The notes under the pieces were generated by a model, which was given only the letters and a program-made list of their open reading frames with translations, was not told the origin of the DNA and ran no database searches. A program made the position numbers and the translations under genes. A DNA stretch of 64,000 nucleotides from Camillea tinctor (lineage: Eukaryota > Ascomycota > Sordariomycetes > Xylariales > Xylariaceae): positions 310,001-374,000 of the forward strand of contig MU394057.1 of assembly GCA_022578605.1 (NCBI GenBank), read 5' to 3'. Every line of letters begins with the position of its first letter. Within the stretch, counting starts at the first letter, position 1. Shown here piece after piece: positions 6,633-59,377 of the stretch.

Positions 6633-8317
6633 ATGTCGTCGCACGTCGCCCATCAGTTGGCGGATTCCCAGTCGCCGCGCCAGACTGGCAAGGCGCTAGC
6701 CAGTCCGCCTCTCTCAAGTTACTCAACATATCACCACCTACCGGGTTTCCAACCTAGTTGCACTCACCTAACCATGACGCGCATCTATGATAAGAACTTT
6801 GTGTGTGGGATGTGTCATCGACCTGGTCAGTAGGGTTGGCTCTATCGATGTACACAGGACCGTGAGCATTTGATCCGGAACAACATGGAGCAAGGCCTCC
6901 CGGTAAATACCATTTTCTCTCTTAAGACATTTCCACCCAGACAACTAGAAATGACTAATAACAACATCACTAGGTGAATTTCGACCGTATTGGTGTTAGA
7001 TTCTGTCAGCAGCTCAAACCCGGTCCTCGAGGTCCAGAAATGAGATCGGACAAATTTGCTTTCCTTAAGGAGACGACTCTCGACCAATGGAAGACATACA
7101 CCCCAGATCAAATTGCCGCCATCTTGGAGCAAAGACAGCATGTAAGCAGCGTAGCCCATTACGCAGGCAAAAGTATGTATACCCCCCTTGCTAACTTTGA
7201 CAGCTATTGGAGGTTTGCGAACGTGAATCCAAGGGACAACGACCCTTTTATTTCCCCTCCCGTGGTGGTCGACGCACTATCCAGCCACCGCCCGGTTTTG
7301 ATTTTCCAAACCATAGGAAGCCGTGGGTGCCCGACGAGGACGATGAGTGCCAGGTCAAGTGTTGCCATCGATGCCGTCCTACCTGCGAGCCACGATCGTA
7401 CCTGAGTTTGGACGGAATTGTATCTGGCGATGTGCCCCCTTCTGCGGCTACTGGATTCGGTTTCCATCGCGCAGGAACTAGACCTATTATCAATGCCAGG
7501 GTGGTGCAGAACCTTGGTCTGAGAGCTGTACCCTGGGTATGAGAAGTCCTCGTAAGATATAGTCGGCGATTATAGGTGCTAACACGTCTGTAGCCCAATG
7601 CCAAGGCCAAACACCCGATGTTTTCGTCCCCCATAATCTCAGAATCGTCAGACTGGAGCATCTCCGACCGGAGCTTGTTAGACTTCTCTAGCGACATACT
7701 TTCGGATGCGGGGCGTATCGAGATCGAGTCAAGTTCGTCGGAGGACAACTTGTCAGTTGACAATATCAACGCACCGTTCTCGCGACAGCATGGCTTCAAT
7801 AATTTTATACGCCCTTCCTGGTCGCCCCCTCCCACGCCGAAGGGTTGGGAAGGTATTCGTTTAGATAAAGAAGGAGTGCCGCACTTTGAGCAGCAGCCTT
7901 TCATATGTGACGGGCGAAGGTAAGTAGCCTATTATGTCTTGCTCTCCTCTGCGCTGTGGCTAATAAGCGTATAGCCCGACATCTCTGAGGTCCAACAAGA
8001 AAATCCACCATCAAGTTCTTAGTTCCATCGACAATCTTGTTATAGAAGCACCAGGTGACTGTAGCGACGATATGGATTCGCAAATCGACGATTCATGTCC
8101 GCCGTCTCCAAGGACTACCTTGATCCGGGCTTCCTTGACGCCACTTCCTCCCCCAACTCACGCAGAAGAAATGGTCATTCGAGATACCGCTAGCCCCATG
8201 ATGGTGGAGGAGTCAGAAGGTTGTTTCCACGGCGAGCCTTTGGATGTTGGCGATGGCATGGCGGTCTTGGAAGAGAGTGTCGACTTGGGGGTTCCTGATC
8301 TCATCTCTCAAGTCTGA
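6633..8317 (+). CDS. Conserved fungal Cys-motif protein interrupted by one in-frame TAG (edited gene or recent pseudogene)
   Basis: Five exons: 6633-6902, 6974-7141, 7204-7536, 7594-7919 and 7975-8317, all with GT-AG introns of 55-71 nt. They encode 479 codons if the TAG at 6831-6833 (codon 67) is decoded. Without decoding, the product is 66 residues. The TAG lies between FVCGMCHRPG and GWLYRCTQDREHLI, inside a Cys-x2-Cys...Trp-x-Tyr-x-Cys motif (C58, C61, C73) that I recall as conserved in a family of uncharacterised fungal proteins. Downstream parts are also conserved-looking: a second Cys cluster (CCHRCRPTCEPRSYLSLDGI) and GFGFHRAGTRP. The last two exons are acidic and Ser-rich, so low complexity. 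Frame is kept across all exons with no other stop, which argues against an old pseudogene. No intron can remove the TAG without losing the Cys motif. Metal binding is an inference. An alternative start is Met48. Confidence 0.72.
6816..6850 (+). promoter_or_regulatory. Predicted RNA hairpin around the in-frame TAG
   Basis: CATCGA at 6816-6821 is perfectly complementary to TCGATG at 6845-6850, and CC at 6822-6823 can pair with GG at 6834-6835. The TAG at 6831-6833 then falls in the apical loop. Fungal A-to-I editing sites are reported to favour hairpin loops and UAG contexts. The pairing is visible in the sequence; its function is inferred. Confidence 0.45.
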
Positions 8318-8804: not shown

Positions 8805-10352
8805 ATGAATCCCCTGAGGGGGCACCGCGTGAGATCAATCATAGCAAATAGAATCGCAGCCGCTCGCATGAGTCCGCTACACACGAGCGCATCATGTCGC
8901 ACTAGCCCGGAAAACACCATACCGGCGGAATGGCTCCGGCGGATCCTAGCAGACCGCTCCGAGACATCACCAAAGCTGTACGCATGGACCCTGGCTAACC
9001 TGCCGGGCATCGCGGCTCCACCTCCTGCTACCGCTCCTAGCGCAGCGGACACCGAACACCGCCGCATCTATATCCTCGGCGTTGGCAACATGGGGCGCCT
9101 GTATGCGACCTGTCTTGCACGCCGACGGCCAGCCGCTGAGCGCCCGCCCATCACGCTGGTGGTGCATAAGCGGGAGTTGCGTAAGTGATGTACAGAATTC
9201 TTTACCAAGCGATACATAGCTTGCTTGCCCCCTGGTGAGAGAAAAGAAAAAGGGCGGGAGCGAGGAGTTTGTATCGACAACAGCTAACTCCACACGCCCG
9301 CCAAAGTCGAGCACTGGGCCTCGCACCCCGGCATCGAGCTCGCGCGCGCAGGCCAACCGCAAGCCGAGCGCCGCGCCGACTTCGCCATCGAGTGGTGGAC
9401 CCCGACGCGGCCCGAGGTGGGCCCCGTCGCGGAGCCCGCCGCCCAGATCCCGAACCTGATCGTCGCCACCAAGGCCGCCGACGCGCTGCCCACGGTCGAT
9501 AGCCTGAGGCGGTACCTCGGGCCCCGCTCGACCGTCGCGTTCGCCCAGAACGGCATGTGCAAGCTCTGGCCGCCGACGGGGGCGGCGTACGCGCGCGCGC
9601 GGTTCGCGCCACAGAAAAGCCCCAGCTGGCTCGCCTGCGTGACCACCCACGGCGTGACCTCGCTGGGCCCGTTCCGCAGCCTGCACGCCGCGCCCGCGAA
9701 CGCGCTCGTCGGCCCCGTCCTGCTTAACGCAGACACGGCGGCCGAGGCGGAGTACTTGGTCGACCAGCTGGCGCGCGCGCCGGGCCTGGAGTGCCGCAGG
9801 GTGCCGCGCAGGGAGCTGTGGGTCGCGCAGCTGGAGAAGCTCGTTGTGAACGCGGTTATCAATCCCCTGACGGCGGTGCTGCGCTGCAAGAACGGCGAGT
9901 TGTTCGCGAGGAGGGACGGGAGCGAGGATCTGGCGCCCGTGATCGATGCGCTGGTGGACGAGGCGAGTAGGACGCTCTGCGCGCTGGTGGTGGATCCGAG
10001 TACGGAGCCTATCCTCGCGGGCGATGGAGTGCAAAAGAATGGAGACTCGGCAAAATCTCTGAAAGCTGAAAGGGAAACACTCCTAGAGCGTTTCTCTTTT
10101 TCCAGCCTTCAGAAGATGCTGCTTGTCGTAGGTGAGAAGGTGGCAGAGAACACGAGCTCGATGCTCCAGGATGTGAGGGCTGGCAAGCAGACCGAAATAC
10201 AGGACTTCAACGGCTGGCTTGTAGAAACGGCACGGTATATTGATAAAGATGTTCGACTTCCACTGCACGAGAAGTTGATCACTCTAGTGGAGGACGGGGC
10301 TGTGCTTAGTAGAGAGCAGCTCAGACGGCATTTGATACCTACTGAAAGGTAG
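8805..10352 (+). CDS. 2-dehydropantoate 2-reductase (ketopantoate reductase) family protein
   Basis: Two exons, 8805-9180 and 9307-10352, with a GTAAGT donor in phase 1, give 473 residues. The Rossmann nucleotide-binding motif ILGVGNMGRLYA sits at about residues 90-101, followed by VVHKREL and, across the intron, LEHWASHPGIEL. The C-terminal domain keeps ELWVAQLEKLVVNAVINPLTA, which contains the Lys and Asn of the ApbA/PanE family, and NTSSMLQDVRAGKQTEIQDF. Family members reduce 2-dehydropantoate to pantoate with NADPH in pantothenate synthesis; fungi also have paralogs of unknown substrate. The first 80 residues are Arg/Ser/Ala-rich and could be a mitochondrial presequence. Start choice is uncertain: an earlier in-frame ATG is at 8724 and a later one at 8868. 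Bases 9310-10000 are strikingly GC-rich, and the rest of the exon is not. Confidence 0.85.
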
Positions 10353-24588: not shown

Positions 24589-25882
24589 CTATAAATTTTC
24601 TTCCCCGACTTCTTCAACTTCGCCGCCGAGTAGTTGCGCAGCTCTCTCCCGACAGGCCTGGGGAGTAAAGCCCGGGCCAACTTTGTTCGATACGAAGCGC
24701 CATTTCTCGTTCTCGTAGTCTTGAAGTGCCGTGCGAAGTTTTTGGTCCTAGCAGAACTCCGTGTTAGTAATGCATATCGGTCTAAGGCTCGCTCAAGTTA
24801 GACCTACTGTCTCGTCTGTCCACTGTGTAGTTTTTGCTTTTAGTTTTGTGCAGTAGCGAACTTGAAGAGTACCTGATGACCTTCCAGGGAAGAAATCGGC
24901 TATTTGTTTCCAAGTTAAACTCTTGTTTTCTTTTAAATCGATTAGTAATGCATCATCCTCCGGCGTAAACTTGAGTTTTGGTCCCCTAGGTCTTGGTGCC
25001 GGTGGTGGCATTCCAGCTTGACCCACAACACTCGGCGCGCCTCCACCGCTGCCACCTATACTCCCATCCCCTTCCCGCCTCATCATCTTTGAGGGCGGGC
25101 CCTGGTCTGGAAGCCGGTGATGATGATGAGTGGGAGCGCTTCCAGCTGCTTGTGCGTAGGCTGCTCCCATAGACGACTGTTGCATGGAATCTAGGTCGCC
25201 TTGCTCGAGATCAGGTATACCAGGAACGGAAAGATCAAGATCGTCCGGGCGTCCTCGCTTCGATCCAGCGCTGTGAGGCTGGGTAGGTGTCATCGCCGGA
25301 TATAGCGGTGGGCCGACGACAGCATGCGGTGATGGCCCCGGAGCATAGTGAGAAGGTTGGTGGCCCATATGGCGAGTGCCGGGGTGGCCGCCGAGGTGTC
25401 CAGGATCCATTAGGATCTGGTGATGGGGGTGGTGATGGGAAGGATGATGCTGCGACATGGCGTGGTGTGAGTGCGAGTGCGACTGAGACTGCTCATGTAA
25501 GCTCCCGTGTCCTGTATGTTGCTGCATTGGATTTCCTCGATGGTGGGAATGTGTATCGTATGCGTGTGGCGTCTGGCTCTGCTCGGCCGGATGCGACTCT
25601 TGTGGGGAGTAATCGACATGATAGTCCGGTCCTACTCGATAGTTGCCCGCCAGTGTGCCTTCGAAACATGGGTCCCGCCAGAGCGAACCGCTCTGGACGG
25701 CCGCCGGCCTCTGAATAGAAAGAATTTGATGGACTGGAGCCCCTCGGGGCTTCTGGAGTGCGGTTAAAGGTGGTGAAGGGGGAGGGCGTATGTCGCGTGT
25801 TTCGATAAGGCTGCCCGTCCTGCCGGTTTACACTTGGTATATTAGTAGGTTGAGGGATCACGCGCCTAACAGCCGAGGGCAT
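24589..25882 (-). CDS. Myb/SANT-like DNA-binding protein
   Basis: Minus strand, proposed exons 25882-25832, 25710-24808 and 24747-24589, giving 370 residues. The intron at 24807-24748 has a CTAAC branch and CTAG acceptor and joins two Myb-like repeats. The first is LKFTPEDDALLIDLKENKSL...WKQIADFFPGRSSGTLQVRY (residues about 265-308). The second is DQKLRTALQDYENEKW...FTPQACRERAAQL (319-358). Between the N-terminus and the Myb region the protein is His-, Gln- and Pro-rich (His clusters about 90-115), as in many fungal transcription regulators. It is probably nuclear. The first exon (17 residues) and its 121-nt intron with acceptor TTCTATTCAG are inferred: the frame of the large exon runs open upstream of its first Met (25527), with a TAA only above the acceptor. 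If that intron is wrong, Met25527 is the alternative start. Confidence 0.72.
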
Positions 25883-32650: not shown

Positions 32651-35600
32651 TTATGCGAAATTGTCATTCCTGTCCACACCAATGTCCTCTAGCTCCGCAA
32701 AGTTTTGGAAATGTAGCGGACGATGCTGGTCGCTGTAGAAAGGCATCGGCGTGTCTAACTTGACATGCACCGGTTTCTTCTCGATACCAGCAAAGCTGCT
32801 ACCCATAAAGCTGTAGTTCCATTTGCCATTTTCGGGCACGAGGAAGTATCCTCTGTACCGTGGACTTAGTAGGAGCTTGCGCTTGATACCCATTGATGTC
32901 GTAAAGCCTTGTGGCTGATCACTACCAATGTCCTTGTTCTCCGCACCCCATCTATAGCCATTGGGAGTTAATGCCCAGGCCGACAGAGACACAGAGCCAG
33001 GTGTGAAGGCAACATCTACAGTAACCGTGTTCTCCTTGTCCCATTGAGGATGTGCATCGAGGAGGCGTGCATGCTCGGTGACATCAGCAGCGGACATGTA
33101 GGGCAATTCGTTTCCAGCCATTGTGTGAATGACACCCAAGGGTTCCATCTCCCCAAGATATTCATGTTGTGGCAGTTGGTGAGGAAGTTGGACACTTCGC
33201 AGCCCTCCGATTTGAGGCACCATTGCGATGCATCGGATTTCCTTTACTTGATCGTTGTCAGGGGCTGAGACGCCGTAGAGGTAACCAGCGACTTGCACAC
33301 GCAAATCCGCAATAGTGATGAATTTCTTCAATATGTTGTTTGGCATAACATAAGTGATATCATCAAGATCGTTGTCTACAGAGGAAACGTAGATGTTATT
33401 GGCTCTAGTCCGTAGATTGGACGTAGCGATGGCTCGTGTTCTCCACTCTGTCTTTGACGCGAATGTTTGCTGCTCGAATTGCGATGTCGTTGTGACAATG
33501 ATTTCTTCGCCATGGACATTTTGCGTTTTAGTTGTAACAGCGGTCAGTTGCTGTTGTTCTTGTTGCTGCTTCTCAATCTCGGCCGCCTGTTGTCTTTGCA
33601 TCGATGGCGCAGAAATTTCCATACCCAAGATGATATCTCGAACTTCACTGCTTGTGAGACTGGAAACGTTGACATTGTTCTTCTTTCCGTAGTCGTGTAG
33701 GATGAGATCCCGTAATTGTGTTTCAACCTTGATCCAATCCTCGTCAGAAAGCGTGGGCCAGATATGATGCACTTGGGTAATAACAGTCTTATCAGGTCGA
33801 AGGATCAGTTTTGTCTTGTCAGGATTCACATGAAGTGCACGAAGAATCAAGACGAGACGTGAGAAGGCAGTATACGAAGATATGCTCTTAAGCCATTCGT
33901 CATAGAGGTTGAACAAAACCATCTGTGGTTCCGTGGCCCGAAGAATCATATCGCCGAGCTTTTCGACCTTCATAGCTGCTTGGAAGGGCAGTTGAAGTTC
34001 AGATGCGCGAATCGAGATATTAGGGAAATCCAAAAGGTGAACCTCGAGTGGATCCAGGAGACCTTTGCGGGTAACAATCAACTCCTTGGGCTGTTCCTCA
34101 ATTGGAAGAGATCGAATAAGTGCTGCGACTTCTTCGGCTGTCTTCCACTTGGCCAACTGTCCGAGACGTTTCTGACCGGCCCATACACTGGTATGAATGA
34201 TCTTCAAGAATAATTGACCTGTGCGTGGGTTGAAAATGAAAATAGCGCCGTTTATTGGTTTGGTGGTCAAATTGCCTTCGAAGGTCTTGTGAATAGTGAC
34301 TCGGTATACATTCGTATCATCAATGAAAAGCTTGGTCTGGTTGCTAAACAATTCAGAGTAGTTTTGCGAGTTTAGGAACTCCTGGTTGCTCTCCGATGCA
34401 TACAGCTGAAGACCTTTTCGAATACGTTCACGCAAGACATAGAGCGCGGGATTGGCCTTCATGATCTTGGCCATAGCTTGCTGGACTAGGACTTTCAAGC
34501 CGGGGAAATACTGCCCGTAAGCAGAATATAGATTGTATGCGAGATCGATACCAATCATGAGACCAGTGGCTGAAGGGTAGATACTCATACTGTCGTTGGT
34601 GTAATCCAGGTATTTAGCGCGAGTGTATCGCTCAATGTCGTGAGAATCGTAGTCACCATATCGGAGTTGAACATCCAACCAGAACTTGTTCGTAGTTGTA
34701 GGCTCAATCGTATCCTTGGTATCATACAGAAGAGACGGCCGTGTGACGTTCCACTTATTGCTAGCAAAAAGCAGGATATCAGCACAGGAGCTGTTCATCT
34801 TGTAAGATTTTCGAGGATGGATCGTTTCTTTTTGCACTGTCTCAATTCCGAGTGACTCCAGCTCCTGGTCAAAAACTTGACACAGATCCATGACTACTGA
34901 CTCATGAATCTTCTGCCATAAATGGGCACGGAAAATCTGGATCAAAGAGATCTTTAGAGTTGGGATCTTGCCATGCAAGAAAATACCTGTGAGATCTAGT
35001 TGGACTTGGAAACCGACATAAACGTTTGCTCGATTAATAGTTGGGGACCACCATAGGGTGAATCGACGGTTAGGAATTTGGTTGAGACCGGATCTTTGGG
35101 CGTTTGTTAATTTCTTGAACTTCATAGACTCTTCAAAACCACTGTTATGAAGTACAAGATAATCATGTCGCAGATAGAGCTGGTCTTTATCGACCCTGAA
35201 ACCAGCCCATTCAGTAGTTTCGGATTCTAGTATGATATCTTCGACAGCAAAACTTTGAGCTTGGGAAGTGGGCACTGATTCCTTCGGTGACTGGAAACCG
35301 GGGGCTTTGAAAGCTCTATATGTTTGTCTCTCCTTTAGTTCAAGGGCTGCGAATTGAGCTGCAGTTATTTCGATAGTTTCATCAGGTTGAGTTGCAGCTG
35401 TCTGGCCCTCTTTGTGGAAGACAAGAATGTGGTTCGATGTGACGACTAGGTCTTCTTGATTGCCCTCGATTTTGATGCGGTAGAGGCGATCTTTGCCGTT
35501 CACTATGTTGAAAGCTCGTCGGGGCCCTCCATCGGGACCGAGAAGTAGATCCCCTTCTTGAACATCTTCGACCGCAACCTGGGTGTGGTCATAGCGCAAT

Positions 35601-38600
35601 ATTTTTGTTCCTTTGGCAAGACAAGCTTTCTCCCAGAAAAGTCCTTCCCAAGAAGGGAAGCCTGTTGCCTTGAACAAAGTGTGCTCAAGGATAGTCTCAA
35701 CACCACCTAGAGCCTGAATGACATCGGTACGGTAAGCGTTCAGGTTCCAAAGTTTACCGTCATGCCGTTGACTTGTCCACCAGAAAGGATTACTCTTCAT
35801 CAGTTGGTATATTTTGAATTCGCTCCTGGTTCTGAACCCCTTATCGAAGCTAAGAGTGCTTCGGTCTTTCTGGAAAAGAGTGTTGATACGAGGCAATCCG
35901 CGATCCCAACTATCCTCTAGATCTTCTAGAGTAAGACGCCGATTCTGCTGGTTAGCTTCCAATCGCTTTTGTGAATATTCTGTCCAGACTCGTTGCGAGT
36001 CGATGAATTCGGCTTCCCAAGGGATGATGTATCGGAAAATATTAGGGATTAGAGTCTCCTCATCGTGCGTCATTCCAGCACGGTAATGTGTGACACCCAA
36101 ATCCGTCTGCTTGGACCATCTCTTATCACTGGCTGGGATCAAAATGTGGGAACCTGAGATCATACCAAGGCCACCCAATTCTTTGGGTGTATAGAAGACA
36201 GCAGGAGGGAAACGAGAAGGCATTTTCGAGTTCAGTCCGATTTTGACTCTAGTTTGTATTTTCGTTTCACACTTTACGATGGTATCTAAGAGATTCACCG
36301 TCGACACTGCAGCTTCGCGGTAATAGGTGAATAGGGCAATAAGGGCCGTGTTCCACTTGTTTGCGATTTTGGTGAATGTCGTCGATCCGGAGGACATGAG
36401 AATTTGGCGAATCCGGTTGTTGAATTTCTGGATGTCCTCTTCAGTGACCTGTAGGAAGGCATGTGCTGTCCTCTCCTTTGTGGTGTTGTCGACGAGCGAC
36501 CAAACACTATCCTTGATGGGGAACTCATCATTCTGGTTTCTGATTTTCGGAAGTATCCGCACTTCGAATCCGCACATCGAGAATAGCAAGTTCGGATTAT
36601 CACGGCTGTAGACACTAGCGAATGTATCATCCCATTCTATAGTAGTAACAGATCGAGGGAGACGATTCTTGAGGTCCCAGAAGACTGCTCGGCCAAGATT
36701 GACGTCATGCCTCATGAGCCTCATCCTGGAGTCTCTTGGCCAACACTTCTTGCTCTTATAACCGATGACATTTTCGAAATTAGGGTCAGGTTGCTCCGTC
36801 AGGAATCGTTGGATAAGATCACGAGACTCTTCGGCGGTGAATCTCAAAAAGACCCAGATCTTATCAATGTATCTCGTGTATAGACGAATGGGATGCTTTG
36901 ACTCCGTCTCGCGGTCGCGGAATTGCAAGAAGTCATTTGGACTCGATGGTGGTCCAGCAATCTCGCTGGCCCGATTCAAGCCGAGGAGCAAGAGATCCAA
37001 GACAAGGCCATAGTATTGGAACACAAAGCCCGAGAACTGAAGACCACGGATCATACCATAACTGTTGACATGGTTCATGTCCTTATATGTAAGCTGCACA
37101 TTGTTCTTCGAGCTGATATAATCAGCCAAGTTATGATCCATGATCAACCTAAGAAGTCGGTTCAGTAACGTTAGATCGATTTTCTCATAAACCTTAGACA
37201 ATTCGGTCTCGATCATGACGTTGCATTCGCCATCAGCAGTTTCCCAGACCCTGTCAAGGTTGTTAATGCCTTGGGCCCATTTATATACAAGCAACGGCGG
37301 AACCTCTGAATCGGAAGGCTTTATCCAGGCAGGGAAAAGATGTCGCTGGTCTGCTTGATACCAAAGATATTGATCAAGGTAGGCATCACTGATCTTCTCG
37401 ATCGGTTCGATATCGTAAACCGGGTTGATGTTGCTGTAATTATCGTTCATGTCAATTTGCACTTCTTTGAATGCACGTTGGGTTAGAAGAAAACGTTTGA
37501 TCCTTTCCAACGTAGTTCCTGGGCTGTCATAAGCCTGCTCTATTAAAGCAAGCTCTTCTCGCTGGCTCTGATTCAAGCGACCCTTGACAGAATATGCTTC
37601 TCTCAGTCTCTCAAGAGCAAGGATTAGAATCTTTGTGTCGTGTTTGTAAGAGACACTTGGGAAGGGGATGGGAGTGAATTTTCGGGATTCAAGCCAGTGC
37701 ACAGTGGTTGTGTAGATGGCTACAGCTTCTTCAGAAGACACATATGGTCCGTCTTTCATGTAGTTATGTTGACGCTCTTGCTCAGCCTTTAGCCAAAGCC
37801 GCGTCAATCGGCCAACGTTCTTTTTAGCCACCGTCTTATCAACGGTGGCGCCTCGCCGAATTCGTTCGCGATTGTAATGAGCGACGGAAATCCACCAGTC
37901 TGCTTTGGACTTGACATAACGAAGGATAATGTTTTCAATAGGGGCCGGCAGACCAGGAACCTTCCAAGGGATGTTACTCTTCCAACACCTCCATGCTTCG
38001 GAAAGATGCTGCAAGACTGTGTTCACCTTATTCTGCTTAATACCTTCAGGCATCATGTCCATGAGATCAGCCATGACGGAAGCCCGAAGTTCGAGATCGA
38101 AGTGTGATTCAACACGCTGTTTTGTCACAGTCTTGGCTACTCCCTTACTATGTCGGCCCTCGAATTGACGAGAGAGCAGATTGCCTAGCCATCTTTCAAG
38201 GAGAGGAATGATACCTCTCATGAAGAAAAGCCAGACCCTCCAAGCAGGAGCCCAGAAACCACAGCCAGGGCCCTTGCCAACAGGGCCACTGTTGAACCGA
38301 TAGTAAATGAGATGCTTCAGATCCTTGCATGACCGAATCTGGTGCATAAGCTTATACTTGTAACGGTACATACCAGTCAACTGACCAACGTGATTGAAGG
38401 CGTATAGGATACCGTCAGCTAGCTGGAACGCATCAATATTGCCTAATCGGTACTGCACTTGTGCATCGACGATGAGCTTTGTTAGGCGCAGGATTTCTCG
38501 CATCAAATGGAACGCATTGCCGAATCGAGACTTCTTTCGCTCCTTTGTCGTCAGCGTCTTCACCGGTTTAAGGTTGAAATTGTAGTCAAGATGGAGATAC

Positions 38601-40249
38601 GTCAGATTTTTGCGATGGATGAGGAGATTCAGCATGTTGAATCCCTGCCGGCAAACCTGTAGACCAGCCTCGACCCAATCAATGGTAGTCTGCTGGAAGA
38701 ACTTGGTCTGTTTCAGGCTTCGAAGAAGATTCTGCCTATTGAGAGCCTTGGGCTTTTTCTTATGGAGCTCATTGAGGACATAAGTCTTCAGCAGCTTTTG
38801 GTACGATACGCGCACTTTAACAGGCTGCTTTGGCGGGCAGTGTTCTAGATACCACTGTTTTACGAGGGGGACATCTTGAGCCCGCACCATACGCCCAGAT
38901 CGGCGATCAAATGGGAAAGGGGCCCACCAAAGCGCGATAGCAGATGAGGTGTCCTCGGTGTACAGCTCCTCGTCAGCGAGGAATGGTTCAGCACTAGCGG
39001 GCAGCTCAAATGCATCATCCTCAGGTTCCTCATTATTACCCTCACCAAATATCTCATCTTCGTGGCTAATAGTCATATTCTTAGGCGCAACTGAACGGGA
39101 GGATATGGGGTTAATCATAGGGTCGAAATGGAACGCAGGGATATTCGGGTCATCGGACTTGATATACACGATTTGCGGGTGTGAATACCAGTTGAAGTGT
39201 ACGCTACGAGGAAGGGAGTTGTAGAGGTACGGGTAGGCGACTCGATACTCGGTTCTGATGGGGAAACGAAAGATGATTCTGTCGATAGCATTGAACTCCC
39301 CAAAGTCTTCGTCATTAGGGTCAATATCTTTGTACAAAGGCTCAAATCGAGGGCCGCCGGGCAACGCAACATTGAGAGCCTTTGCGGTCAAGAAGCTCTT
39401 CAAATCAAAGAGGTAGAAATAGTTCTGATCGACCGTCTCGCTCAGCAAGGGACGGCTAAGTCGGTGAAGGGTGGCCATCTGTGGTAGGGTAAGATTCCAG
39501 GTCTTGTAACTCGGGCCGTTGACATTATCAGTATCAACTAACGGCCGGTGTTCATAAAACCATTCATAAACAGCAGCATCTTCTTCTTCATCAAGTTCCA
39601 TCTGAATAGGCTCCAGAGGTTCCACATCCTCGATGTTCTCGGACCAGGACAACGGCGGTTCCTCGTCGTCAAAAGGCGGAAATCTCATCCGCTTGAATAA
39701 TCTTCGGTCGCTCTTCTCTTTCCGCATCGTCAACCACATGGTGGCCCACTGTGCGTGGAAAACGGGTGGAATAACACGGGGTATCTCGTTGACAAGCGTC
39801 AGGCAACCATTAACGTGATACAGCACCTTCACTTCTCTCGCAGATTCCCAGGGCATGGGCATGTTCTCCAGCAGCTTCATGACAGCGTGTGGCATGAACT
39901 TCAAAGCACCGAGATAGCTTCGCTTGTCGCTCGTGTACTTCTTCTGGGAAACGTCGCCAATGTCCTTCACGATCTTGCGCAAGTGTTCGGGAGGCATGTC
40001 CGCCTTCTGGGTCTCGACGAAGCCGCCCTTACGCTTCTCGCCGAAGCGATTCCTCTGCGTCCGAAGCCATTCCTTCTTCTTCTGCGCGAACTTGGCAATC
40101 TGCGGATCGGTGGGAGGTCGATACCCAGGAGGCGGCGGAGCTGGTGCTCCCGGGGGAGGAGGAAGGAAGTCAGAAGGAGGTCCAGGAGGAGGAGGGGGAG
40201 GTGGAGGAGGTCCCCAGCCAGGGGGCGGAGGTGGTGGAAAGGACGACAT
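32651..40249 (-). CDS. PRP8: Pre-mRNA-splicing factor Prp8 with mini-intein
   Basis: One uninterrupted frame of 2532 codons, or 2372 residues after intein removal, close to Prp8 of other eukaryotes. Prp8 is the central U5 snRNP protein. It contacts both splice sites and the branch point, and cradles the U2/U6 catalytic RNA. The order of the family is visible: a Pro-rich N-terminus (residues 5-46), the PRO8NT segment ([20 protein letters not shown]), the PROCN core ([17 protein letters not shown] onward), the reverse-transcriptase-like and linker parts, the intein insertion after residue 1542, the RNase-H-like domain ([20 protein letters not shown]) and a C-terminal MPN/Jab1-like domain ([20 protein letters not shown]) that regulates Brr2. 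No intron is needed, unusual for so long a gene here. It is divergent from the eL34 gene with 638 bp between start codons. Confidence 0.98.
35144..35623 (-). other. PRP8 mini-intein (160 residues)
   Basis: The insert lies between extein sequences LFWEKA and [12 protein letters not shown], the known Prp8-a intein site of fungi. It begins with Cys ([12 protein letters not shown], block A). It contains the block B TxxH motif ([10 protein letters not shown], Thr62 and His65 of the intein). It ends with block F/G residues [20 protein letters not shown] followed by the terminal His-Asn, and the +1 extein residue is Ser. All residues needed for protein splicing are present. The region between blocks B and F is only about 55 residues, with no LAGLIDADG motifs, so the homing endonuclease is absent. 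The intein should splice itself out post-translationally. Confidence 0.95.
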
Positions 40250-40887
40250 CTTCGAGTCAGCTGGAGCTGGAGCTAGAGCTAGGCTTAGGCGACTGTTGAT
40301 GTTGTCACTTTCGCGCCGCGATGTACCGCGGATATGGTGTAGAGAACGGGCGCAGTAAACACGTTATGTTGGTATAAATTAGATGAAGAAATAATTATTA
40401 GATGGTAGAACGGGAATCCAGCCACACACAACGTTCCCCGGTGATAAATGGCGACGAGTCGTGATGCTTTACGTTACGGGGTTAAAAAAAAGATTAAGTT
40501 GATGAAACAAACAACCCGAGTCGCCTCGCGATCTTCGATTGGGGGATTTGGGATTTTTTTCCCAATGACTAAGACCCAAGCTAGCCTAGCGTAAAATGCA
40601 CGTACAGCCACACTTTGAGGGAAAGCTAGGAGTGGACTGGTAGCTTGGACCCAGTGAATTTTAAGTATCTAGATCACGTGGCGATATCAGTGTGGCATAA
40701 GTGTGGCTAATGGATTGGAAGTGGCTGATGTAAATGGGAACTTGGCAATTTTCTGATTGGTCCCGTACCATAAGCGGGCTCACACAGATCTTTCTTAGAA
40801 AACACCAAAAATTCATCCACACAAGAACAAAAAAAAGTTCTCGAGAAAGAAGTCAACCATTCCAGCACCACCAGCAATACCGTCACA
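40250..40887. promoter_or_regulatory. Bidirectional promoter region of PRP8 and eL34
   Basis: A 638-bp spacer between two divergent housekeeping start codons, so it must hold both promoters. It contains a palindromic CACGTG (40675-40680), the class of site bound by bHLH factors. The eL34 side is A-rich near the start codon. The extents of the individual promoters cannot be read. Confidence 0.5.
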
Positions 40888-44838: not shown

Positions 44839-45493
44839 ATAAATCTTTTCTATCTATATTTCATTTTCCACTTCTTCTGAAACTTTTCTTATTAGTTATT
44901 ACCAAAAACCCCTGGTCTTATCTTAAACGGAAGTCGGCTTCTTCATAACTTATTAGCCCAACAAGGTTCCTATTCACTTTAACTTCTTACCTTACTAGGG
45001 CTTCCCTTGTCTTGGTCGGTTTTCAACCGGAGAAAGAAAACTACTAGTAAACTTCATCGCTCATCGCTCATCCTCATCCTCACCCTCATCCGTCCTCCGA
45101 CAAAGGAAGAACGACGAACTTTGAACATCTAAAATATTCAGTTCCGGGGAGAGCACGCGCGCAACTTCTCATCTATCATCCATCATCCATTCCTTCAACA
45201 CCTATTCACCCTTTCAGACAAACCCGTGGATCGCGGCTTATAAACCCCCTTCGACGCTCTAAGGCAGTAAGTGCAGTCAATCAATTTTCAGTCAAGTCAA
45301 GTCTTCCTCTTATCAGGGGTCCTGAAGAAGGAGGATGCAAGCTACGATGGTTCAGCGTCTACTCGGCTTGGTCAAGGGCACTGTTATTCTCATTCCAATC
45401 ACACCGTAGTCCATTCCATTATTATCTACCTATCCACCCACCTACTACGTCTGTTTGTTGCTTCTTGGTACCCCAATACATACAATATTCACC

Positions 45494-47668
45494 ATGTCTA
45501 TCTCATCTGTAGTTTCATCTTTATTGGGAGTCAAGCACCTTATCTGCGGCCTCACCCTCGTCGTGAGCGGCGCGGTTTGTGTGCATCAAATGGCCAAGAC
45601 CCGGGCTAGCGGGCCCGAATCGAAGGATGCGGACGCCACTGACCCGGCGCTTTTGCGAGATCACTCGGATATCAAGTCGTATAAAGCCCAGCAATCTGGC
45701 ATCGTCTATCCTCGGGTCCGGGTCTTCTACCGCCGCCATCCCAAAGCAGATGAGCTCCCCAAGGAGCCTGGCCCACTTCCGTTATTAGTCTTCATCCACG
45801 GCCTTGGGGGCTCTGTCGCCCAGTTCCACCCCCTTCTGACTAGTCTCGTAAATACGGCCTCTTGCTTAGCTATAGATCTACCCGGCTGTGGCAGATCGGA
45901 GTTTGCACCTAAATCATGGGATGCTTATACGACCGATGCCCTCACGGATTTGCTAGAGACTATCATCGATGACTACCGAGAGAAGGACCAGGGAGTGGTG
46001 CTCATAGCCCACAGTATGGGGACCGCCCTTGCTGCTCGCATAGCGAATAAGAAGTCAGCTCATCATCTATCGCCCCCTTCCCACGTGATGGGTTTGGTAG
46101 CGATATGTCCGGTATCTGGTCCACCATCAGAAACGGATGTGCGTAAATTCAGAAAGCTGCTCTGGATCCCCAACTTCCTATTTGACCTGTGGAGAGCCTG
46201 GGACCGCTGGGGAGGACCGAATAGTGCGAGTGTGAAACGCTTCGTTGGACCTGGAGCAGACCTAGAGGCGCGGCAGCTTCAAAACAAATTCAACAGCCAA
46301 AGTCGGACGCCGGTATTTCGTCGAATGGCATGGGGATCACTACCAGTATATACTGACGGAAGACCAACAGGTGGGCTTTTCGGAAAAGCTGCTTGGGATG
46401 GTCTTGATATCCCAGTGTACCTCGTGGGCGGTGAATACGATACTGTGACCCCTAAGAAGGAGCTCGACAAGATACGGGAGATACTCACTCTTGCCTCACC
46501 AACTGAGCTGACAAAAGCTGATGGAGAAGCCGGTGGGGATGATGCTGATGACAAATCGAACGGAGATGTCACAATTGCGACGGAAGGGAGCGGAATGGCA
46601 GAAGCTGCAGCCCCAGTAAATCTAGGATCACAGCCTCGGGACCACATGCCGAAGTCTATTAAGGATATCCGCCAGGAGGATTTTATGCCCAAACAACCAC
46701 GTACTGTGAACATCGAGGATTCTTTTGAAGATCCTACCACGCCTAGAGATCATCCAGAATTTCCTGGTGGTATCCCCCCACAGCCGTTAACCCCGGCTAA
46801 GGTTGTGAAGTGTTCTGTGCTCTCCGCCGGGCATGCTTTGCTTTATATGCCTACCACGGTGCGCACGCTGGCTGGACTCATAGAGGACTTCATGAACGAC
46901 CACATTACCGGTCGGTTTTCCCTGTGAGTTGGAATACCTATATCTCTCCCACCAGAATTATAACCGAATATCTAACCAGAAATTCTACGCAGTGGGTGGC
47001 AGCTACAATATCTCTCACGTGAGGGCAAATGGGACGTCAAGAACCTTGCGAAGTGGAAGAGCGTACGGCCTGTTTCCGAGCCGATTGGCGGCATTTTCCG
47101 CGCCATGAAGACGCTCCGCGAGGTTGACGAGGAACACTGCCCCAAAGTGTTCGCCGCTAACTGGTAAGACCCCCGCAATCCCTTTAACGGTGCTAATAGA
47201 CTTTCGGGGGACACCACCACTGACACTCGACGGGATGGGGTGGGGGTGAATAAAAATAGGGGCAAGATAATAAAGGACATCATCGACATCAGCCACGCAG
47301 ACCCAGTCTACGACCCCAAGAGCTTCGGCCCCGGCATCAAGTACCACAAGTTCCCCACGGTGTCCAAGATCCCGCCCACGGACGCCGAGGTGGAGAGGTT
47401 CATCCAGCTCGTCGACCGCGTGCGCGCGGACCAGAAGGAGCGCGCGGCAGCCGACCCCGCCTGGCCCGACGACGCCGTCGTCGGCGTCCACTGCCACTAC
47501 GGCTTCAACCGCACCGGCTACTTCGTCGTGTGCTACCTCGTCGAGCGCTGCGGGTACCCCGTCCGCGACGCCATCGAGACCTTCGCCGAGGCGAGGCCTA
47601 ACGGCATCCGCCACTCCCATTTTCTCGATCGCTTGTTTGTACGGTACGCCGGGGGGATCAAGGCGTGA
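45494..47668 (+). CDS. Alpha/beta-hydrolase fused to RNA-triphosphatase-like cysteine phosphatase
   Basis: Three exons, 45494-46923, 46993-47163 and 47260-47668, give 669 residues. The start ATG has a good context (CACCATGTC). An in-frame ATG 39 bases upstream is the alternative. Residues 8-30 are hydrophobic and could anchor the protein in a membrane. Residues about 95-460 are an alpha/beta hydrolase: oxyanion loop FIHGLGGSVAQF (102-111), nucleophile elbow IAHSMGTA with Ser174, acid Asp316 (VGGEYDTVTP) and His447 (SAGHALLYMPT). An acidic insertion (345-430) precedes the His. Residues about 500-669 are a cysteine phosphatase with the P-loop VHCHYGFNRTGYFVV (Cys612, Arg618) and a possible general-acid Asp nearby. 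The HCxxGxNRTG pattern is that of metazoan capping-enzyme RNA triphosphatases and PIR1-like phosphatases. The substrates of both halves are unknown. The C-terminal exon is clearly more GC-rich than the hydrolase exon. Confidence 0.87.
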
Positions 47669-57062: not shown

Positions 57063-59377
57063 TTACTGCTTCTGCGAGATCATCATCTCCTCGTTATCCG
57101 CTATAGGAGCGGGTCTATTCGAGGACTTGTTCAGCTCGTTCTCTCCTACGACATTATTAGTGCCTTCCAAGTTCAGGTGGTAATCCTTGTTTTGGCTGAG
57201 AACATATTCTTCCTTGTCGATGTGTCGGAAGGTGAAGTAGAAAATGATGGTGAGCACACCACCAGCAATAGCTGGGCCACCGAAGTCCCAAGTGAGATAA
57301 GGATCCGTAACGACCGCAGAGCAGGCCAAACCAATGGCATAGGCGACGGCAGTGTTGAATAGGTTGATCGCAGAAACGAGACCTCTCATGTTTACAGGAG
57401 CACGAGAATAAGCGATACCGTAAGCAGGGACGTTGATGAACAACTCCGAGATACCACCGATGGCGAAGGGAATAGCCATCCACCAAATGCTAATGGGGGC
57501 AACACCAGTACCGATCGTACAGTCGCTAGAGCCATACTCTCCGCAAGGCGACTCCTTGTAAGCGTAGTAGTTGAGAATGGTGTAGCCAACACCACCGAGC
57601 GTAGATAGGCCGAGACCGGTTGTGATACGGGCGATGGGACCGTAGTGGATATTCAGTCTCCGAAGGAGAGGGTAGAGACCGTAGTTCAGCACTGGAGCCA
57701 TGGCAATGATACTGAGCGAGTTGAAGTTCGAGATGACGTCGTTGGGCACACCATTAGTGGTCAACATAGTCGACAAGAAACTAGCCGCAGAACCAAGACC
57801 GTTGTCGTTAATGTACTGGATCGGGAAGAAGCAGAAGATTCCTGTGGCCTGGAAAGTTCTTCGAACATCGTCTACAAACTGGTCGTTCCACTCAGTCTTG
57901 ATGCTCAATCCCGAAGCAGCGATGTGAGAAGGCTTGGCCAGATCCCAGAAGCCAGCTCGGCCAAATCTCTTGATACCACCACGACGCAAGCAAACGCCGA
58001 GGACCCTGAACACATTTCCGAGATCACTTCCACCGGGAGGGTGGAGGAGCAGGCGCTTGTACAGGAACCAGAGAAGAAGAGGGAGAGGCAAGTAGAGGAG
58101 GAGTGGCAACAGGAAGGCTAGCCACCAACCAACATACTTCTCAGAGTAACTTGTTGCGACACCGAAGAATCCACCAATGTTGATGAGAAGGTAAAACCAA
58201 AGCATGACCCGTTCCGTAGTCGATTCTGGGTCCTGGATAACCCGTTCACCACTTGATAGGGTCACAACCTTGGGAACGGTGGTGGTCACCTGGTCAAGCA
58301 ACAAGGGCGAGACATTGGGCTTGAACATAGCTGTACGTAAACCCATTGAGTAAGCCAAAGAACCGCTTATAGGCATGCTTCCAAAGGAGCTAACTTACCA
58401 GCACCGATTGACAGAATGTAGACCGACAAAAAGTATGGGACCTTAGCCTGGCCGGTAGCAAGAAGGTTTTTAGCACCAGCGGCTACCATCAAGACGTGAG
58501 CAACACCGAAGACACCGACACCCCAGCAAATCAGCCGGAAACGGCCAGTCTTCGTATCGGCGAGCCATCCGAACAGCAGTGGAAGAGCGTAGGCGAGTAA
58601 ACTGAAAGATTGCGTGATCGCGTTGGCGACCACGGTTCCCATGCCAAGAGCACCGGCCGTCTGTTGGTCACCGACTGGAGGGGCTCCATAACCATTTCCA
58701 CCCGTCGGCACTAAAAGAAAAATTTAGAATGTTAGTAAAAGATTCATTTCGAAATTAAGACCGGAGTAGAAGAGGTTCGGAAGGAATTCGGGATTGCGGA
58801 GTCCCCTGATTTCAAGGGAAGCTCAACAATAGTTGTTAGGAAAATGAAGTCAGTTGGGTAGAAAAGCTCTCTAGTTGACATTTGCCGACAGACCCTTTCC
58901 ATCCACCCCTCCTTCACGGTGGCGGTTTTCATGGCTAAAGTGCTGTAGCCCTGTTTTCCCACCCTCCCTGCTTCACTCTTTACACGAAACCATGTAGAGC
59001 CCAAGTGTGCTTCTGGATTGAACAAGCTCGAAAATCATATAAAAGGGGAAAAAAAGAATAAAAAGAAAAAGGGTGTACTAACAAGGTCTATTGACAAAGT
59101 TTGATATAAGAGGTTGGACTCCATAGTACGAGGCTCGTTCGCAAAACTCGACGACGCAGATTAGGTAAGCAACAACTGGTAGACTCCCGGGTACACGACG
59201 GAGGGTTTTAAGATCGTCCTCGGTAGGTTTTCCTTCGTAGTCTTCTTCCATAATCGAGGGATCAAGATATGCCGCGTGCTTGTCGCCAGGAGGCGTATGG
59301 GCCATCTTCTCGTCCCCCGAGGGGGAACGCTCGAGATCCTTCTCGCTAGCTGTAGAGAAATCATACGTGTAAGTCAT
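57063..59377 (-). CDS. PTR2: PTR2-type proton-coupled oligopeptide transporter (POT family)
   Basis: Minus strand, exons 59377-59083, 58710-58399 and 58330-57063, give 624 residues, the normal size for fungal Ptr2. The N-terminal 70 residues are hydrophilic and acidic (cytoplasmic tail). Then family segments appear in order: PVVAYLICVVEFCERASYYG with the ExxER-type proton-coupling motif, FVNRPLPTGGNGYGAP joined across intron 1, LLFGWLADTKTGRFR, KPNVSPLLLDQ across intron 2, MLWFYLLINIGGFFGVATSY (the PTR2 signature region), and a C-terminal half with paired helices ending FYFTFRHIDKEEYVL. About twelve membrane helices can be seen. It imports di- and tripeptides with protons across the plasma membrane. 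Intron 1 is long (372 nt) with donor GTTAGT. A long hydrophilic C-terminus follows the last helix. Confidence 0.94.

Follow-up and report, generated by a model that had tools for sequence, protein, structure and literature searches.

A putatively edited, apparently old in-frame UAG codon in a cysteine-rich protein gene of Camillea tinctor and other Xylariomycetidae

The closest described counterparts of the gene discussed here are fungal genes in which adenosine-to-inosine (A-to-I) editing of the mRNA corrects an in-frame UAG stop codon (articles are cited by PMC number). In Fusarium graminearum, 69 PUK1-like genes were found through false annotated introns lying over edited UAG codons (PMC4817773). 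In PUK1 and stk-21 (NCU03242), of Fusarium and Neurospora, the UAG lies in a conserved domain, is covered by a false annotated intron and is shared by distant species (PMC4817773); the conserved UAG in relatives of F. graminearum CHE1 has led to early end, late start and false intron annotations (PMC11169179); and in the OLD-ZAO module of Neurospora crassa UAG correction controls protein length (PMC12754623). A five-exon gene of Camillea tinctor (Xylariaceae) appears to share these traits. It lies in a 64,000 bp stretch of contig MU394057.1 (GenBank assembly GCA_022578605.1, positions 310,001 to 374,000; this whole stretch is called the window, and positions are given in its coordinates). We assign a probability of about 0.74 to the reading that the single internal stop of this gene is an old, conserved UAG that would be corrected by A-to-I editing through Tad2-Tad3-Ame1 during sexual development and then read as Trp. 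The locus has the hallmark of premature stop correction (PSC), an in-frame UAG within an otherwise intact, conserved coding sequence, and it would add to the known class of stop-correction editing genes, its unusually wide conservation being the new element.

The gene also differs from each of its counterparts. PUK1 and stk-21 are kinases whose editing has been demonstrated with cDNA and RNA-seq (PMC4817773), whereas this gene encodes another protein and its editing is putative. Unlike CHE1, it belongs to no C2H2 family and its range is a subclass; no C2H2 zinc fingers, the CHE1/ZAO trait, were found past the stop, and a Pfam scan of the protein allowing E values as high as 10 gave no family. 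In N. crassa the zinc-finger gene ZAO lies beside an OTT_1508-type deaminase gene (PMC12754623), whereas in C. tinctor such deaminase genes are on other contigs. The features of the locus are as follows.

6633-8317, plus strand: five-exon gene for an uncharacterised Cys-rich protein, the sole tried model with a single internal stop
6633-6902, 6974-7141, 7204-7536, 7594-7919 and 7975-8317, plus strand: its exons
6903-6973, 7142-7203, 7537-7593 and 7920-7974, plus strand: its introns
6633-6830, plus strand: coding part that yields 66 residues when the mRNA is unedited
6831-6833, plus strand: in-frame TAG, the proposed A-to-I edited stop (A6832), avoided or used as an end in relatives
6811-6856, plus strand: predicted hairpin (6811-6821 with 6845-6856 and 6825-6830 with 6836-6841; loop 6831-6835)
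6801-6857, plus strand: 57 bases that P0001, as deposited, treats as an intron but that show every sign of being coding

The gene model was chosen by trying GT/AG pairs near the expected exon borders. It has 478 sense codons and the internal TAG, followed by the final stop, and a check for disabling changes found none besides the TAG at 6831-6833; translation and exon modelling thus bear out the preliminary description of this locus, which had reported a single in-frame TAG in an otherwise intact five-exon gene. The stop falls between CGMCHRPGQ and GWLYRCTQDRE, that is, between a CxxC pair and the following GW-x-Y-x-C. Since it precedes the next Cys after the CxxC pair, the 66-residue product could not complete the N-terminal Cys motif, which is perhaps metal-binding. 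The gene is single-copy in the C. tinctor genome (44.7 Mb assembly, 154 contigs), where it lies on the contig labelled C7. Besides the Pfam scan of the C. tinctor protein, Pfam gave no family for its relatives P0005 and P0051 or for the deposited C. tinctor model P0001, and for P0026 only a sub-threshold chance match; NCBIfam gave no family for P0026. A profile search against sequences of solved structures had 0 matches, an AlphaFold2 model of P0005 (mean predicted local distance difference test score 65, predicted template modelling score 0.46) matched nothing in the PDB at E <= 0.001, and no paper was found that names the Trichoderma reesei relative.

Evidence that the stop is genuine comes from 148 distinct proteins gathered in three protein searches: 52 from named Xylariomycetidae, 62 from other named taxa and 34 further ones (two genes enter the counts twice, as halves). 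The codon is spanned by one of the 52 Xylariomycetidae proteins (P0005) versus 58 of the 62 named outgroup proteins, and the other four of the latter start downstream of the site. Among proteins with an upstream CTHLTM-like anchor, the sole basis on which the anchored outgroup was selected, the codon is spanned by 0 of 30 Xylariomycetidae versus 31 of 31 named outgroup proteins, and the 18 anchored proteins among the 34 further ones all read across as well (17 by pattern, P0136 by eye). The first search alone, made with X at the stop in the query, gave 1/46 Xylariomycetidae versus 8/8 others. The 51 non-spanning models have poor and mutually inconsistent introns, start late, or end at the codon: among the 30 anchored ones, 26 leave the codon out at junctions that vary, two end before it and two continue with unrelated sequence, and 21 of the 22 without the anchor are non-spanning, with late or odd starts. 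P0128 (Xylaria nigripes, Xylariaceae) and P0130 (Hypoxylon sp. NC1633, Hypoxylaceae) terminate exactly before the stop codon, and separate models from the same two species, P0018 and P0055, placed on contigs of equal length, represent the downstream halves. Some models keep the left half of the motif (CSTCHRPG, CSLCHRPG, CSLCRRPG); the right half survives in others, as GWLYRCTQDRE (P0007) and GWLWRCTTDRE (P0031). The gap extends to the order Amphisphaeriales, in Seiridium (P0017) and Pseudomassariella (P0007). Because 51 of 52 relatives avoid the codon while the anchored outgroup proteins all read through it, it is very probable that the stop is genuine and of long standing, neither an error nor a fresh pseudogene. 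The single stop that breaks the frame could by itself indicate that the gene is a pseudogene or that one genome was misassembled here, but there is no second disabling change, models from two other species stop at this very codon, and protein searches find the downstream protein conserved to its C-terminus among relatives; this explanation is rejected on the comparative evidence and is very improbable.

Where the codon is read, 76 spanning proteins that match the motif have F in 39 cases, S in 10, N in 8, M in 7 and L in 3, with Y and A twice each and Q, D, I, V and T once each. The preliminary description had given Phe at this place in related proteins, and Phe is indeed the commonest residue.

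Splicing is the main rival to editing. The deposited protein P0001 (C. tinctor F4810DRAFT_707518) equals the five-exon product minus VCGMCHRPGQ, the stop and GWLYRCTQ, so that 6801-6857 is treated as an intron. That stretch has the donor GTGTGT and no CTRAY branch site, unlike the other four introns of the gene, whose donors are GTAAAT, GTAAGC, GTATGA and GTAAGT and which have CTAAY starting 13-19 bases before their ends. Seven of its positions (C, C, G, G, W, C, Q) are invariant in the 31 named outgroup proteins, and the C. tinctor stretch encodes all seven; splicing would thus lose the most conserved motif, yet its residues are kept. One conserved intron is further disfavoured because the junctions differ by species and both flanks survive as protein somewhere. 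The earlier statement that no intron can remove the stop was nevertheless too strong: among the GT-AG pairs tried, 11 excise it and leave the frame open, and of these only 6801-6973 includes a CTRAY branch site, the one belonging to intron 1. A spliced form is therefore possible, with an intron inside exon 1 or with intron 1 spliced from an earlier donor. Four deposited models (P0001, P0002, P0004 and P0017) share a junction joining F to DRE, and in FgBUD14 editing and alternative splicing both occur at the stop (PMC11156358). We consider it unlikely, on balance, that alternative splicing is what bypasses the stop.

Translational readthrough of the UAG, or a restart at a downstream Met, might also yield a functional product, and several deposited models begin at a Met past the site (e.g., P0003, P0018 and P0030). 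However, the Met of C. tinctor MEQG is not conserved (Met in 2/31 outgroup proteins, Ile in P0004 and Leu in P0006), and the flanks preceding the stop are conserved as protein; for readthrough signals, the bases adjoining the stop were considered. Such a product seems most improbable.

The base context of A6832 was compared with the rules for preferred and depleted bases flanking edited A's given in PMC9600606. U at -1 and G at +1, +2 and +3 are of the preferred kind (four of the six flanking bases, with U at -1), and at least four preferred bases together with U at -1 are found for 20 of the 329 A's tested in the coding sequence. In folding with 30 bases per side, UAGGG (6831-6835) forms a 5-base apical loop in which A6832 has an unpaired probability of 0.99. 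The CATCGA (6816-6821) and TCGATG (6845-6850) pairing described earlier is recovered in this fold and the TAG does lie in the loop, but the stability of the hairpin is no better than chance (below). The combination of U at -1 with a predicted hairpin loop, as seen at A6832, is weakly informative.

The genome contains a candidate for the factor that editing would need. Editing of mRNA requires Tad2-Tad3 with Ame1, in which a Met-Val pair is essential (PMC11087585). C. tinctor has three DUF726 genes, one of which, on C2, is of the Ame1 type with the Met-Val pair and reads DNPWTVAMVRAEKAG; at the aligned place the C19 gene has RN and the C8 gene QD. In the C2 protein the Met lies 30 residues before the GYSLG Ser, versus 31 in the numbering of PMC11087585, so the alignment to Fusarium is shifted by one residue. 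Nine PF00383 deaminase matches were found, an assignment at the family level. As a control, 12 regions of 133 kinase matches were inspected for a stop of the PUK1 type, and the kinase on C54 (around 207719, locus L032) reads D-stop-WSLG (GAC-TAG-TGG) with 217 open codons before the stop and 132 after it; the A of this TAG is predicted to be unpaired. An edited UAGUGG site is described in an N. crassa kinase (PMC4817773), and by its sequence the C54 stop is a probable editing site of the PUK1/stk-21 type.

The enzyme could instead be an OLD-type (OTT_1508-like) deaminase. The genome has two OTT_1508-type (PF14441) genes (loci L020-L023), and OLD proteins share the preference for hairpin loops and for U at -1 (PMC12754623). 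However, these genes are on C2 and C17 while the five-exon gene is on C7, with no PF14441 match beside it, and the OLD targets described are mainly adjacent C2H2 zinc-finger genes (PMC12754623), whereas this protein has no Pfam family. Editing by such an enzyme rather than by Tad2-Tad3-Ame1 is thus a slight possibility, and an OLD-ZAO module at the five-exon locus was rejected, as no OTT_1508-type gene adjoins it. A crude pattern search for C2H2 motifs came up empty in the 9.5 kb regions around the two OTT_1508-type genes.

Under the preferred reading, of correction by Tad2-Tad3-Ame1, a single-copy gene would carry an old UAG, in frame, that separates its CxxC pair from GW-x-Y-x-C, and most of the subclass Xylariomycetidae seems to have kept a stop here. 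Translation of the unedited mRNA would end after 66 residues. During sexual development Tad2-Tad3-Ame1 would probably turn A6832 into inosine, and the inosine codon would be read as Trp, at a place that is mostly Phe in relatives, giving the full protein. What we infer is editing as the way past the stop, Tad2-Tad3-Ame1 as the enzyme, fruiting bodies as the place and Trp as the residue.

Several observations weigh against this reading. The sole spanning Xylariomycetidae protein, P0005, has Gln at the codon. P0021 and P0129 have unrelated residues after CRRP or CRRPG, the 21 late or odd starts in models lacking the anchor may have other causes and are weak evidence, and Trp occurs at the codon in none of the 76 spanning motif-matching proteins. 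The codon of the relatives is known from protein models rather than DNA and may be another stop in some, and shared descent reduces the counts to few independent events; a Fisher value for them, which takes no account of that descent, was given no weight. The stop-removing GT-AG pairs and the shared F to DRE junction have been noted above. With regard to context, -2 G and +4 U are of the depleted kind (two of the six flanking bases). Compared with dinucleotide shuffles the hairpin scores z = -1.22 (equally good or better folds arise in 23 of 200), and compared with 2000 recodings that change the 21 codons around the stop synonymously it scores z = -0.73; A6832 is placed in a hairpin loop in 72% of the recodings too (62-83% across four window sizes), and predicted hairpin loops also hold 122 of the 334 A's and 9 of the 19 UAG or UAA triplets of the coding sequence. 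Hairpin energy was therefore rejected as evidence of editing, since it does not discriminate against shuffles and recodings. The idea of a correctable UAG put forward in the preliminary description is, all the same, much strengthened by the wide conservation of the site.

Other genes were noted elsewhere in the window. The downstream neighbour (9288-10349, plus strand) has ketopantoate reductase (PanE/ApbA) domains. On the minus strand, 32654-40363 holds a single unbroken frame of 2570 codons that encodes Prp8, a splicing factor. Parts of its U6-snRNA interacting domain flank a Hint (intein-type) domain that occupies residues 1581-1687; this insertion is likely a Prp8 intein with no listed homing-endonuclease domain. 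Further frames contain a Myb-like DNA-binding domain (24796-25827, minus strand), an alpha/beta hydrolase fold (45410-46924, plus strand) and a POT-family transporter domain (57066-58394, minus strand).

If the reading is correct, stop-correction editing would be extended to the Xylariomycetidae; in the passages covered, the papers found on A-to-I editing together with Xylariales or Xylaria report none there, and other papers may do so. The subclass dates back well over 100 million years. Since individual fungal editing sites are reported to show rapid turnover between species (PMC5381528), the persistence of one across a subclass would be the unusual part, and the adaptiveness of restorative editing is debated (PMC12754623). 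If a single codon has kept its stop in genera of two orders, with Trp absent and a sense residue in just one of 52 proteins, it would make a strong natural example of a site retained by selection. More tentatively, with the odds slightly against it, the stop may be an old genetic switch held by selection over the two orders: constant full-length protein would be harmful in hyphae, so that Trp has not become fixed in the lineages seen, the protein would be on only where the deaminase is active, and the 66-residue product may itself be functional.
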